Assembly (NCBI GenBank): GCA_946612625.1 | Contig: CAMOEW010000002.1 | Coordinates: forward strand, 1-64,000 | Length of the DNA stretch: 64,000 nt | Reading direction: 5' to 3' | Origin: an uncultured Prevotella sp. | GTDB taxonomy: Bacteria; Bacteroidota; Bacteroidia; Bacteroidales; Bacteroidaceae | Shown here: positions 1,581 through 50,305 of the stretch, in pieces | Position numbering within the stretch: position 1 is the first letter of the stretch | Layout: each line of letters opens with the position of its first letter | Made by a program: the position numbers and the translations under genes | The notes under the pieces: generated by a model | Told to the model about the DNA's origin: nothing | Seen by the model: the letters and a program-made list of their open reading frames with translations, nothing else | Databases searched by the model: none

Positions 1581-1680
1581 AATTTCTTTTTTTGTTTTAG
1601 TAAAATAACATGGCGCAAAGTTAGGAATAAATTCCGAAACCGCCAAAGGCTTGTATTCATTTTCCGTATTTCGGGTAGGA

Positions 1681-1861
1681 AATACTGTCGTTCGGAGCGA
1701 CACTAATTCCGAAATCACGGAAATACTGTCGTTCGGAGCGACACTAATTCCGAAATCACGGAAATGCCGTCGTTCGGAGCGACACTAATTCTGAAATCGC
1801 GGAAATACTGCCGTTCGGAGCAGCGCTAATTCTGAAATCGCGGAAATGCCGTCGTTCGGAT
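1681..1861. repeat. 41-bp tandem repeat array, locus 1 (about 4.4 units)
   Basis: Units begin at 1681, 1722, 1763, 1804 and 1845 (partial): AATACTGTCGTTCGGAGCGACACTAATTCCGAAATCACGGA and variants. Confidence 0.9.
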
Positions 1862-29797: not shown

Positions 29798-29877
29798 CAA
29801 AGGTAGTATAAATATCATTGAAAAACAAATTTTTCCAGCAAAGAATTTGGATATTATAAAGAATCTTTGTAACTTTG
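29798..29877. promoter_or_regulatory. Divergent -7 motifs for the wecB-like gene (-) and the btu operon (+)
   Basis: CAAAGGTA at 29798-29805 (TACCTTTG on -) and TAACTTTG at 29870-29877 on +. Confidence 0.5.
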
Positions 29878-29885
29878 CAACCGCT

Positions 29886-30058
29886 AATGAATCAGGGAAT
29901 CGGGTGTAACTCCCGGACAGTCCAGCTGCTGTGAGTTGTCTTTTACGGCGCAAACATAATAGTCACTGATGGATAGACGATGAAATCGGGAAGACGTTTG
30001 CAATGCCGGCAACGAGTCAGAATACCTGCCATTTGGCTTTGAGAATATGCCTGTTGTC
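29886..30058 (+). ncRNA. Cobalamin riboswitch
   Basis: Blocks match the AdoCbl riboswitch consensus: ATCAGGGAATCGGGTGTAACTCCCGGACAGTCCAGCTGCTGTGA, AATAGTCACTG, CGGGAAGACG, and B12 box GAGTCAGAATACCTGCC; upstream of btuB-like gene. Confidence 0.93.
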
Positions 30059-33224: not shown

Positions 33225-34352
33225 TTGATGACTCGTATTATTATATATTTTGTTTCAGTGCTTGCCGTCTTATGCTCATGCAAAGGCGGCAGCACTTCAT
33301 CTTCAAATGGTGGTGGCGACAGCCTCGCGTTCAAGTATGCCGAGCATATCGCTGCCACCATTCACGATGGCTATACCGTGGTGCGCCTTTCAGACCCGTG
33401 GAACAGCGGCAAGGTGCTTCATACATACATACTCGTTCCCCGTGACAGCGAAATGCCTGTCGGCATTCCCGAGGGGACTGTGGTGCGCACTCCGCTCCAG
33501 CGTGCCATAGTGGCAACGAGCGTGCATTGTGGTCTGGTCATAGCCATGAATCGCAAGGAAAATATTGCCGGCATCTGCGAGTTGAGATATATCAACAACG
33601 ACTATATCCGGCAAGAGTGCAATGCCGGGCGGATTATTGACTGCGGCAGCGGTCTTTCTCCTACGCTTGAGAAGATTATCGACCTCCAGCCCGACGCCAT
33701 ATTCCTCTCGCCGTTCCAAAACAGCGGAGGCTACGGCAGGGTAGAGGAGCTGAATATCCCAATCATCGAGACAGCCGACTATATGGAGACATCGGCTCTC
33801 GGACGTGCAGAATGGATGAAGTTCTATGGTATGCTATTCGGTGCTGAGCGCGAGGCCGACAGCATCTTTAGCCGTGTTGAGCGGCGCTACCATGAGCTGA
33901 TGGTCATTGCTAAGCATTCCGACGTGCGACGTTCGATGACTATGGACAAAATGACAGGCTCAGTATGGTATGTACCAGGCGGACATAGCACTATCGGCAA
34001 GCTCATTCAGGATGCCAACACCGTCTATCCGTGGAGCACAAACGATAACAGCGGAAGCTTGGCTTTACCGTTTGAAAGTGTGTTCGAGCAGTCGGGCAAT
34101 GCCGATGTATGGGCATTCCGCTACAACGCTCCCGAACCGATTACGTTTGAGTCGCTGCTATCAGAGAATGCCAGCTATGCACAGTTTCGTGCGTTTCGCA
34201 GCGGCGAGGTGTATGGCTGCAATACTGCCACTACTACATTCTACGAGGACACGCCGTTCCATCCCGACACCCTGCTACGCGACTTCATCATAATGTCGCA
34301 TCCTGACATCAACCTCGGTGCCACGACCTACTTTACGCGAATTGTGAAATGA
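33225..34352 (+). CDS. btuF: Periplasmic cobalamin-binding lipoprotein, BtuF-like
   Basis: ABC solute-binding fold (VVRTPLQRAIVATSVHCGLVIAM, IIDCGSGLSPTLEKIIDLQPDAIFLSPF); start overlap with the next permease. Confidence 0.8.
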   Translation: MMTRIIIYFVSVLAVLCSCKGGSTSSSNGGGDSLAFKYAEHIAATIHDGYTVVRLSDPWNSGKVLHTYILVPRDSEMPVGIPEGTVVRTPLQRAIVATSVHCGLVIAMNRKENIAGICELRYINNDYIRQECNAGRIIDCGSGLSPTLEKIIDLQPDAIFLSPFQNSGGYGRVEELNIPIIETADYMETSALGRAEWMKFYGMLFGAEREADSIFSRVERRYHELMVIAKHSDVRRSMTMDKMTGSVWYVPGGHSTIGKLIQDANTVYPWSTNDNSGSLALPFESVFEQSGNADVWAFRYNAPEPITFESLLSENASYAQFRAFRSGEVYGCNTATTTFYEDTPFHPDTLLRDFIIMSHPDINLGATTYFTRIVK

Positions 34353-35356
34353 GAGTCAAGTTGATGTGTCTGTCCGTTGTCATCGTCCTGCTGTTTGCAC
34401 TGAGTCTTGTGGTAGGAGCCATCGATATACCGCTGCGCGATGTCGTGGCGATACTCCTTGGCGACGAGAGTCAGCGTAAGTCGTGGCAGTATATCGTACT
34501 GCAGAGCCGGTTGCCTCAGGCAATGACGGCTGTGCTTTGCGGAGCGTCGTTAGCCGTGAGCGGACTGATGCTCCAGACAGCGTTCAGAAATCCCCTGGCC
34601 GGTCCGAGCATCTTCGGCATCAACAGCGGAGCATCGCTGGGCGTTGCACTCGTGATGCTGCTTCTTGGCGGCAGCGTCTCGGCCGGCTCGTTCACTCTCA
34701 CCGGTTTTGCTGCCATACTCTTTGCGGCTTTTGTCGGTGCCATGACGGTCATGGCGCTAATTCTGTTTTTCGCCACTGTTGTGCGCAACAACGTCATGCT
34801 GCTTATCATAGGCATCATGATTGGCTATCTCGCTTCGTCGTCGATTTCGCTCCTGAATTTCTTCGCAACCGAGCAGGGAGTACAGAGCTACATGGTATGG
34901 GGACTGGGCAATTTCGGAGGCGTCACTATGCAGCAGATGCCGGTCTTTGCCTTTGTCAGCATTCTTGGGCTCTTCGGTTCACTGCTGCTCATCAAACCCC
35001 TCAACGCCCTTCTCTTAGGCGAGCAATATGCCGAGAACCTTGGCGTAGATACTCACAGCGTGCGCAACCGCCTGTTGCTCATCACCGGCATTCTTTCTGC
35101 CGTAACCACGGCTTTCTGCGGCCCTGTAGCGTTCATTGGCTTAGCGGTGCCTCATGTTGCGCGACTTATCACCATGACCGACGACCATCGCATTCTTATG
35201 CCTGCCACGATGCTTGCCGGTGCCGTTGTTGCCCTTGTCTGCAATATCATCTGCGTGTTGCCAGGCGACAGTGGAATCATACCGCTCAATGCTGTCACCC
35301 CACTGATGGGGGCACCTGTTATTATTTATGTAATAATCAAAGGAAAGCGGCGTTGA
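34349..35356 (+). CDS. btuC: FecCD-family ABC permease, BtuC-like
   Basis: SRLPQAMTAVLCGASLAVSGLMLQTAFRNPLAGPSIFGINSGASLG, GPVAFIGLAVPHVARL. Confidence 0.92.
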   Translation: MRVKLMCLSVVIVLLFALSLVVGAIDIPLRDVVAILLGDESQRKSWQYIVLQSRLPQAMTAVLCGASLAVSGLMLQTAFRNPLAGPSIFGINSGASLGVALVMLLLGGSVSAGSFTLTGFAAILFAAFVGAMTVMALILFFATVVRNNVMLLIIGIMIGYLASSSISLLNFFATEQGVQSYMVWGLGNFGGVTMQQMPVFAFVSILGLFGSLLLIKPLNALLLGEQYAENLGVDTHSVRNRLLLITGILSAVTTAFCGPVAFIGLAVPHVARLITMTDDHRILMPATMLAGAVVALVCNIICVLPGDSGIIPLNAVTPLMGAPVIIYVIIKGKRR

Positions 35357-35376
35357 AGCAGGGCGGTTTTCAGACG

Positions 35377-35594
35377 ACGGTAATTCTGAAATCGCGGAAA
35401 TGCTGACGTTCGGAACGACGGTAATTCTGAAATCGCGGAAATGCTGACGTTCGGAACGACGGTAATTCTGAAATCGCGGAAATGCTGACGTTCAGAACGA
35501 CGGGAATTCTGAAATCGCGGAAATGCTGACGTTCAGAACGACGGGAATTCTGAAAACGCAGAAATGCTGTCGCTCGGGCGGACACTATAATTTG
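35377..35594. repeat. 41-bp tandem repeat array, locus 2 (about 5 units)
   Basis: Units begin at 35377, 35418, 35459, 35500 and 35541: ACGGTAATTCTGAAATCGCGGAAATGCTGACGTTCGGAACG and variants. Confidence 0.92.
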
Positions 35595-35687: not shown

Positions 35688-38090
35688 ATGAAGAAATTGA
35701 CTATTGTGTTTGTGGCATTACTGGCGATATCGGTGGTAAATGCTGCCAAAAGCGTGAGAGTGGTAGTGCCATTGAACTTCGGCTGGAGTTTCCATGCAGG
35801 CGATGTAAAAGGTGCAGAGGGCGCGAGTTTCGACGACAGCGGCTGGCAGAAAATCAATCTGCCCCACGATTTCCAGATTCACCAGCCATGGGTTGAACCC
35901 GACCCGTCGGAACGTCCCGACAACAGCGATGCTGCCGCTAATATCAAGAGCCGTCTGTCGAGCCGTGGCTTCAAGGAAATGGGCCGTGGATGGTATCGTT
36001 TCCATCTCACACCCGCCGATTCGCTCAAGGGCAAGCGTCTGCTGCTCGACTTCGGAGGCATCATGTATGTGGGCGATGTATATCTCAACGGCGAGCATGT
36101 GGGCAAAACCGACTATGGCTATGTAGGGTTTGAGATTGACGTGACCGACAAGCTGAAGACAGGCCGCGACAATGTCATAGCAGTGATGGCCGACACTCGC
36201 GAGCCCAACAACTCGCGCTGGTACACCGGCGGCGGACTGTTTCGTGGAGTAAAGCTCATCGCTACATCGAAGGATTATTTCTTCGGTCGTTATCCGCTCT
36301 ATATCACCACACGTGACAACCAATATGTCAGCGTGAAGGCCGAGTTTACCAACCGTACTCGGCAGGATGCCCGCATCAGCGTCAGTATTTACGACCCCGA
36401 CGGTCGTCAGGTTGGTGAGACCGTCAACAGCTTTCCACGTCACCGCATGGCGCGTACTGTGGAAGTGATGGCCGCTACTGACGTGAAGATAGACAACCCT
36501 CAGTTGTGGGACACCGACACACCCCGTCTCTATACCGTTGTAGCACGTCTGTTGCGTGATGACGGAAGCATTGCCGACGAATATACCGACCATTTCGGCA
36601 TACGTACTATAGAATATGGTCCGACGTTCGGAATGAAGCTTAACGGCCGTAAAGTGCTCCTCAAGGGGTATGCCAACCACCACACCCTCGGAGCTCTCGG
36701 TGCCGCTGCCTATCCGCGCGCCATAGAGAAGCGCATACAGCTGATGAAAGAGTTCGGTATGAATCACATACGCACCAGCCACAACCCCTACAGCCGCGAG
36801 TTCATCGAGCTGTGCGACAAATACGGAATGCTCGTGGTCGATGAGCTCTACGACAAGTGGACACGGCAGCACACTGGTGGGCGCGTGGCGTTCGAACAGC
36901 TGTGGCAATATGACGTACCCGAGTGGGTGAAACGCGACAGAAACTCTCCGTCGGTAGTGATGTGGAGCCTCGGCAACGAGCTGCAACAAGACCCCAACCA
37001 GCCGTTCAACGACTTTGGAGTGACGATGTTCAAGCTACAGAAAACACTAATCAACCGCTACGACTCAACACGCTTGGTGACTACAGCCATGCATCCACGC
37101 TACCGTAACTGGCAAACCGACTCGCTGCCATGCGACCTTGCCATGGTGACCGATGTTCAGGCATATAACTACAGATATATGTACTTCCCCGGCGACTACA
37201 AGCGCTTCCCCTGGATGAAGTTCTATCAGAGCGAAGCTACCATGGCTGCCATGGGACCGAACTTCTACGAGATGAATCTTGACCAGGTGATTGGTCTGGC
37301 ATACTGGGGAGCTATCGACTATCTCGGCGAGAGTCAGGGATGGCCCGCCAAGGGATGGAGCCAGGGCTGCTTCTACATCGACCTTGAACCAAAGCCGAAG
37401 GCATACCTCATGCGCAGTATGTTCAAGCCCGACGAGCCGGTGGTGCATATCGGCATTATCGACAAGAAGGGCGACATGATGTGGAACGGAGTGCAGACCG
37501 GCAACGAAGGCATGAGCGACCACTGGAACCGCCAGCCAGACAAGAAACTCAGTCTCGTGACATACACCAATGCCGACGAGGTGGAACTCATCGTCAACGG
37601 CAAGAGCATAGGTACGAAACCCAATAACCGCAAAAATGCCAAGGAACGCAACCAGATACGTTGGAATGACGTGACATATCAGGACGGCTACTGCGAGGCA
37701 GTGGCAAAATCTGGCGGCAAGATTGTAGCTCGCCACAGGATAGAAACTGTCGGAGCGACGAAGAAACTAACGGCCGAGAGCGACAACAGCCAATGGCGTG
37801 CCGACGGTACCGACCTTCAGCACATACGCATCGCAGCCGTTGATGCCAAGGGGCGCTGCTGCCAAGGTGACACACGCAACGTCAAGTTTACTGTTGAGGG
37901 CGAGGCCGACATCGTGGGTGTGGTCAATGGCGACATCAACAGCAATGAGATGATGGATGCCGACAACCGCAATCTCTTCAACGGCACCTGTACCGTCATC
38001 CTGCGTTCCCGACCAGTAGCAGGCAAGGTGGTGCTCACTGCCTCTGCCAACGGACTGAAGCCGGTAAAGGTGACGATGCAGACAAAATAA
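35688..38090 (+). CDS. Glycoside hydrolase family 2 (beta-galactosidase-like)
   Basis: LNFGWSFHAGDVKGAEGASFDDSGWQKINLPHDFQIHQPW, HIRTSHNPYSREFIELCDKYGMLVVDE, MWSLGNELQQ, FYQSEAT. Confidence 0.9.
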   Translation: MKKLTIVFVALLAISVVNAAKSVRVVVPLNFGWSFHAGDVKGAEGASFDDSGWQKINLPHDFQIHQPWVEPDPSERPDNSDAAANIKSRLSSRGFKEMGRGWYRFHLTPADSLKGKRLLLDFGGIMYVGDVYLNGEHVGKTDYGYVGFEIDVTDKLKTGRDNVIAVMADTREPNNSRWYTGGGLFRGVKLIATSKDYFFGRYPLYITTRDNQYVSVKAEFTNRTRQDARISVSIYDPDGRQVGETVNSFPRHRMARTVEVMAATDVKIDNPQLWDTDTPRLYTVVARLLRDDGSIADEYTDHFGIRTIEYGPTFGMKLNGRKVLLKGYANHHTLGALGAAAYPRAIEKRIQLMKEFGMNHIRTSHNPYSREFIELCDKYGMLVVDELYDKWTRQHTGGRVAFEQLWQYDVPEWVKRDRNSPSVVMWSLGNELQQDPNQPFNDFGVTMFKLQKTLINRYDSTRLVTTAMHPRYRNWQTDSLPCDLAMVTDVQAYNYRYMYFPGDYKRFPWMKFYQSEATMAAMGPNFYEMNLDQVIGLAYWGAIDYLGESQGWPAKGWSQGCFYIDLEPKPKAYLMRSMFKPDEPVVHIGIIDKKGDMMWNGVQTGNEGMSDHWNRQPDKKLSLVTYTNADEVELIVNGKSIGTKPNNRKNAKERNQIRWNDVTYQDGYCEAVAKSGGKIVARHRIETVGATKKLTAESDNSQWRADGTDLQHIRIAAVDAKGRCCQGDTRNVKFTVEGEADIVGVVNGDINSNEMMDADNRNLFNGTCTVILRSRPVAGKVVLTASANGLKPVKVTMQTK

Positions 38091-50090: not shown

Positions 50091-50167
50091 GTGTTTTTCA
50101 TGGTATTAGATTATTAAGGTTAATTTATTGGGGGATTGGTTGTCGTGATGACAACCAATTCTTTTTT
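50091..50167 (+). ncRNA. Candidate ~80-nt small RNA or short leader ending in an intrinsic terminator
   Basis: Promoter immediately upstream; hairpin ATTGGTTGTC-gtgat-GACAACCAAT (50135-50159) then tcTTTTTT; no convincing ORF inside. Confidence 0.55.
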
Positions 50168-50305
50168 CTTTAAATCACTGTTTTTTATATTTTGGGTCAG
50201 TCGATATTTCATAGGGGGATATTTTTACGTTATTATTTTTTGCAGTTTCATAAATTATTTGTAATTTAGCGGCTGAAAATAAGACAAAGAGGAGTTTACA
50301 ACAAA

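Follow-up and report, generated by a model that had tools for sequence, protein, structure and literature searches.

Background

Dispersed repeats in bacterial genomes are usually regarded as selfish debris, placed at random along the chromosome. The sites matS (read by MatP) and those of Noc and SlmA are single, short, dispersed palindromes, each recognized by a conserved protein. The arrays that we describe here resemble these in being dispersed, palindromic and non-randomly distributed along the chromosome, but differ from them in being mostly four-copy, in having a species-specific sequence and in that their binding protein is a putative one. Minisatellites of the MIRU/VNTR type have units of 40-100 bp, repeated in tandem with variable copy number at tens of intergenic loci, and our arrays likewise consist of tandem units at tens of intergenic loci; to our knowledge, neither even spacing nor palindromic units have been described for them. 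The REP/BIME/REPIN elements, associated with RAYTs (Y1 tyrosine transposases), offer a further likeness as dispersed intergenic palindromes that often form regular groups; our units, however, follow one another in direct rather than alternating orientation. We rejected membership in the REP/RAYT class, as no match to Y1_Tnp was found in our genome, which is 83% complete, and the stem lacks compensatory change.

The closest published element is BrickBuilt of Porphyromonas gingivalis ATCC 33277, a 23-nt minisatellite carried inside a MITE, with 19 intergenic copies, a leader and a tail with inverted-repeat ends, and a repeat number that expands and contracts between strains (PMC4596501). This element of the Bacteroidales has short, spacerless units, is always intergenic and species-limited, and is predicted to form long stem-loops (PMC4596501). 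Our arrays share with it the short, spacerless tandem units, the intergenic location, the many loci, the limitation to one species, the predicted stem-loops and the bacteroidalean provenance, but differ from it in their 41-bp unit, their approximately 50 loci and their mostly four units per array. They also lack a common leader and tail, both of which are present in the elements of a second species (G350, below), and their copy number is narrow across the loci of a single genome. Even spacing along the chromosome does not figure in the parts of the BrickBuilt account consulted (PMC4596501).

Results and discussion

A 41-bp palindromic array between a permease gene and a glycoside hydrolase gene

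In the 64,000-nucleotide stretch of DNA analyzed here (the window), TRF identifies a 41-bp tandem array of 5.0 copies with a 95% match at 35374-35577 on the forward strand (locus 2; span from the profile). It comprises a partial unit, four good units starting at 35396, 35437, 35478 and 35519, and a decayed unit, amounting to about 5 x 41 bp. A FecCD/btuC-type permease gene (34349-35356, forward strand) stops 17 bp before the array begins, and about 110 bp separate the end of the array from the start codon of a GH2 glycoside hydrolase gene (35688-38090, forward strand). The original prediction had correctly placed the array between these two genes; the interval that it gave, 35377-35594, overruns the right end of the array by about 17 bp. 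Farther upstream in the window, a Cobalamin riboswitch (29850-30047) precedes genes for a TonB receptor and btu-type transport.

Each of the four good units contains a palindrome to which no strand is assigned, namely CGTTC-G-GAACG at 35407-35417 and 35448-35458 (letters CGTTCGGAACG in both) and CGTTC-A-GAACG at 35489-35499 and 35530-35540 (letters CGTTCAGAACG in both), while the fifth core is degenerate (CGCTCGGGCGG). Thus, the palindrome and the succession of two cores centered on G by two centered on A had been read correctly from the letters, as had the occurrence of CGTTCGGAGCG in a further array of the same family in the window (locus 1; 1678-1860, forward strand), which has 4.5 units and is flanked by two reverse-strand genes, one for a DUF362 protein and one for an iron-type alcohol dehydrogenase. 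The contention that the change falls at the unpaired center is not borne out even at locus 2, where position 27 of the unit also differs between copies 2 and 3 (T to G). In dinucleotide shuffles of the window, the 23-bp core had zero matches within 3 mismatches.

A genome-wide family of intergenic arrays with a modal copy number of four

A search of the 2.18 Mb of the genome from which the window derives (G000; 91 contigs, 83% complete) recovered approximately 50 array loci of this family, the pattern matching 187 times against a single match for the reversed-pattern control. From 157 units collected out of 40 arrays we derived the 41-bp consensus GGAAATGCTGTCGTTCGGAACGACGGGAATTCTGAAATCGC, with the palindromic part GGAAATGCTGTCGTTC-G-GAACGACGGGAATTCTGAAATCGC; it is an imperfect palindrome about the central G17, reaching positions 1 and 33. 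Units are 79% identical within arrays and 71% identical between arrays, and the arrays are therefore old and partly homogenized. An alternating 82-bp order is seen in some of them (L002, L007, L010 and L030). The median unit count of the interior arrays is 4.35 (IQR 3.8-4.5, range 1.4-5.4), and in 25 of 37 exactly four units exceed the threshold.

None of the 40 arrays lies within a gene. Where both neighbors could be seen (n=28), the flanking genes are in tandem in 12 cases, divergent in 8 and convergent in 8, a mixture which argues against a purely promoter-related role. The flanks of the arrays hold no common sequence beyond promoter-like words, among which TTTGC is frequent, and no terminal repeats were seen on the arrays; start codons, where they flank an array, mostly lie about 65-240 bp downstream of it. 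A CRISPR array was rejected as an identification, since the units abut without unique spacers between the repeats, and a doubling of half-units (2 x 20.5 bp) finds no support in the unit sequence. In six arrays (L004, L005, L006, L009, L033 and L035) some units have a second half ACTGAGGAAACTGAGAAAAC replacing GACGGGAATTCTGAAATCGC, a half-unit swap between arrays. At L037 and L020 (contigs C22 and C61 of G000), about 190 bp beside the arrays are 85% identical, possibly a flanking repeat or a duplicated region.

Dyad symmetry without compensatory change

The symmetry of the units had been attributed to selection on a hairpin or a dyad-symmetric binding site. We evaluated covariation on 38 sequences, each array contributing a single 82-bp dimer, and in this set neither the paired cells of the named stem (86.9% versus 87.6% in shuffles) nor its covariation score (0.160 versus 0.169) is any better than in shuffled data. 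Slid registers pair at 33-58%, far below the true register, and hence the consensus is genuinely dyad-symmetric, with its changes uncompensated. For instance, the counts for the pair 14-20 are TA 73, TG 56, CA 13 and CG 12; thus, T or C at position 14 is no predictor of A or G at position 20. Across 36 array consensuses the center (position 17) departs three times, and the arm positions 15, 20 and 24 depart 11, 13 and 8 times, respectively; the stem is at least as variable as the center, the outcome which the original prediction had itself named as refuting it. The unit alignment likewise has positions 15, 16, 20 and 24 more variable than the center, and at positions 15 and 16 the arm is often changed without its partner, as in CGTCAGGAACG.

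Conservation is instead concentrated in the blocks GGAAAT (1-6), CG (12-13), GGA (17-19), C21 and AATTC (28-32), a pattern more in keeping with a DNA site than with a stem, and column conservation across the units is strongly uneven in a test that ignores kinship among arrays. RNAalifold recovers almost no consensus structure (-0.8 kcal/mol), and Rfam has no match to the arrays. The single-sequence RNA fold of the array is good (z -6.0), as would be expected of any succession of palindromes. With covariation at or below that of shuffles and the consensus structure nearly absent, we rejected the hairpin half of the original prediction. Its other half, a dyad-symmetric DNA site, stays compatible with the data, fitting the uneven column conservation, the presence of arrays in all gene orientations and their even chromosomal spacing.

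Over-dispersed spacing along the chromosome

On the contigs with multiple arrays, the gaps between arrays are 19.4, 20.9, 22.9, 25.4, 30.8, 30.8, 32.7, 33.7 and 51.7 kb. Not a single neighbor pair is closer than 19 kb, against 12.65 expected from the exposure, i.e. the stretch that follows an array until another array or, when censored, the contig end is reached. Conditional on the array counts per contig, the over-dispersion has a P of about 1e-5. Arrays are also enriched near contig ends, with 28 of 50 within 3 kb of one against 12 expected, and several contigs end inside arrays. Because the exposure is cut at contig ends, this excess is unable by itself to create the over-dispersion; a search for repeats common to the contig ends, which might have caused the excess, found none.

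Species-specific sequence and recurrent architecture

The 41-bp family is limited to its species among the genomes covered. BLAST recovered no relatives of it in 59 genomes of the genus, a profile search of 398 genus genomes produced none that was convincing, and a search of 40 relatives returned nothing beyond chance-level scores; the single profile match, in G360, was rejected as coding-like sequence lacking tandem repeats. Exact-pattern scans had no match in GTDB 220 and IMG/VR, though these may omit the records nearest to our genome. Among relatives, a clear tandem array at the positions orthologous to btuC/GH2 was found in G296 alone, within the GH2 locus. The repeats of that genome, 22 bp long and with AGAGAAGCGGTGCTT, stand in tandem at two loci (L043:3821-3922 and L120:562-622), of which one is the GH2 locus, and are possibly a family peculiar to its species.

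Stretches of 100 kb from other congeneric genomes contain many tandem arrays, with periods of 21-23 bp and 41-46 bp. In the complete, one-contig congeneric genome G350 we scanned 500 kb (1,000,001-1,500,000) and 400 kb (2,000,001-2,400,000), which hold 27 and 19 arrays, respectively, 46 in all (L149-L173 and L194-L213). Their unit, AAAGTTSAACTTT plus 9 nt, has a period of 22 and a palindrome unrelated to that of our family. In nearly every array there are four full palindromes, and what matches as a fifth is usually a half-site in the leader; the 400-kb stretch contains no solitary or doublet arrays. All lie outside predicted genes, with 8 of 27 sites convergent against 26 of 164 in the background, and 3 of 27 divergent against 43 of 164. 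Sequence is particular to the species, but a second species shows the architecture again: a fixed low number of palindromes, intergenic and well separated.

The mean gap in G350 is about 19 kb. Judged by the minimum gap, both stretches are over-dispersed, the 500-kb one with a minimum of 8.0 kb (P<5e-5) and the 400-kb replicate with P=0.0005. Most of these arrays have in common a leader, in which TGYATAAAYATRC motifs occur, and a tail, which ends in TGCATAAATATACA; the linkers that part the conserved blocks vary in sequence but are constant in length. Leader-bearing and leaderless arrays are at least 7.9 kb apart in 9 of 9 and 7 of 7 cases (P=0.0016 and 0.022), the 7.9-kb threshold having been picked after the gaps were seen. 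G350 also has a match to the Bacteroidales SRP RNA; together with the FopS sRNA of the window (below), this assigns the window to the Bacteroidales or a close relative, probably to Prevotella as GTDB defines it. In G345, 500 kb hold 7 loci whose arrays all consist of exactly three palindromes of 21 bp and fall into two types (AATTATAGCTATAATT and AATTTTGGCCAAAATT); no significant regularity of spacing is detectable among these 7 loci. Its arrays (L144-L148, L174-L193) have the cores TATAGCTATA and TTGGCCAA, and at two loci both types stand 151 bp apart in mirrored order.

Possible DNA-level binding platforms or selfish elements

We posit, with a probability of roughly 0.4, that the arrays are DNA-level binding platforms with constrained spacing. 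The units would act as double-stranded DNA, and all four palindromes of an array might be occupied cooperatively, along a single helical face, by a putative dimeric protein, 41 bp corresponding to about four helical turns and the 21-22 bp period of the related species to about two. Arrays bound in this manner could mark the chromosome every 20-35 kb or so, akin to a nucleoid-organizing or segregation site system. Consistent with this are the approximately 50 arrays with near-fixed copy number and uneven column conservation, the arrays between convergent genes, the over-dispersion in two species, the mutual avoidance of element types that differ in their flanks, and the linkers of constant length but variable sequence between the conserved blocks of G350. 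Against it stand the fragmented assembly of our genome (83% complete, 91 contigs) with its arrays enriched near contig ends, and G345, with its mere 7 loci in 500 kb and no detectable regularity. Furthermore, mobile repeats account for a species-specific sequence more readily than a conserved chromosome system does.

We regard a selfish origin as a serious rival, over which we favor the binding platforms slightly. The arrays could be dispersed, non-autonomous, minisatellite-bearing elements of the BrickBuilt kind, spread by a putative enzyme, a proposition to which we would give somewhat less than even odds; their even spacing would then be owed not to a host function but either to target immunity or to recombination between close copies being selected against. 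Transposons such as Mu and Tn7 combine arrays of transposase sites of about 22 bp with target immunity. The limitation to a species, the invariably intergenic location and the many copies all suit such elements, the leader and tail of G350 resemble a mobile element, and BrickBuilt in P. gingivalis is a close parallel. However, the arrays of our genome are devoid of common flanks, no terminal repeats were seen on them, no Y1 transposase was found in the genome (83% complete), the copy number in G350 is nearly fixed, and the avoidance there spans element types with different flanks. Other readings fare worse. That the arrays are operators or promoter-proximal regulatory sites of a dispersed regulon would agree with their usual distance of about 65-240 bp upstream of flanking start codons and with the TTTGC words, but is improbable given that in 8 of 28 arrays the neighboring genes converge on a site with no need for a promoter, that G350 has the excess of convergent and the dearth of divergent sites noted above, and that the distances are explained by avoidance of the promoter region itself. 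RNA hairpins serving as transcript stabilizers, terminators or small RNAs are more improbable still: the good fold of the array speaks for them no more than for any palindrome row, and they are countered by the stem without covariation, the near absence of a consensus structure, the lack of an Rfam match and the arrays in all gene orientations. We attach equally little credence to noise from neutral tandem duplication or to an artefact of assembly; short-read assembly can collapse tandem repeats, and contigs do end inside arrays, but about 50 related loci contrast with zero matches in shuffles and one in the reversed control, and the same architecture is present in the complete single-contig genome G350.

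A near-fixed copy number and a measurable exclusion distance, with unrelated sequence in a second species, point either to a new chromosome-organizing system in the Bacteroidales or to a target-immune mobile element. Extending the binding-platform proposal, it is conceivable, even if rather unlikely, that each species of the genus possesses its own family of chromosome-wide platforms, with helically phased palindromes in a fixed small number at near-regular intervals, and a putative reader protein whose target would change between species while the architecture is kept.

Elsewhere in the window, positions 50091-50168 match a Bacteroidetes FopS paralogous sRNA family, and the very start of the contig (15-89) carries 3.4 copies of a 22-bp tandem repeat, ACTAACTCATTTAGAGTTACCC, possibly representing a second repeat family.
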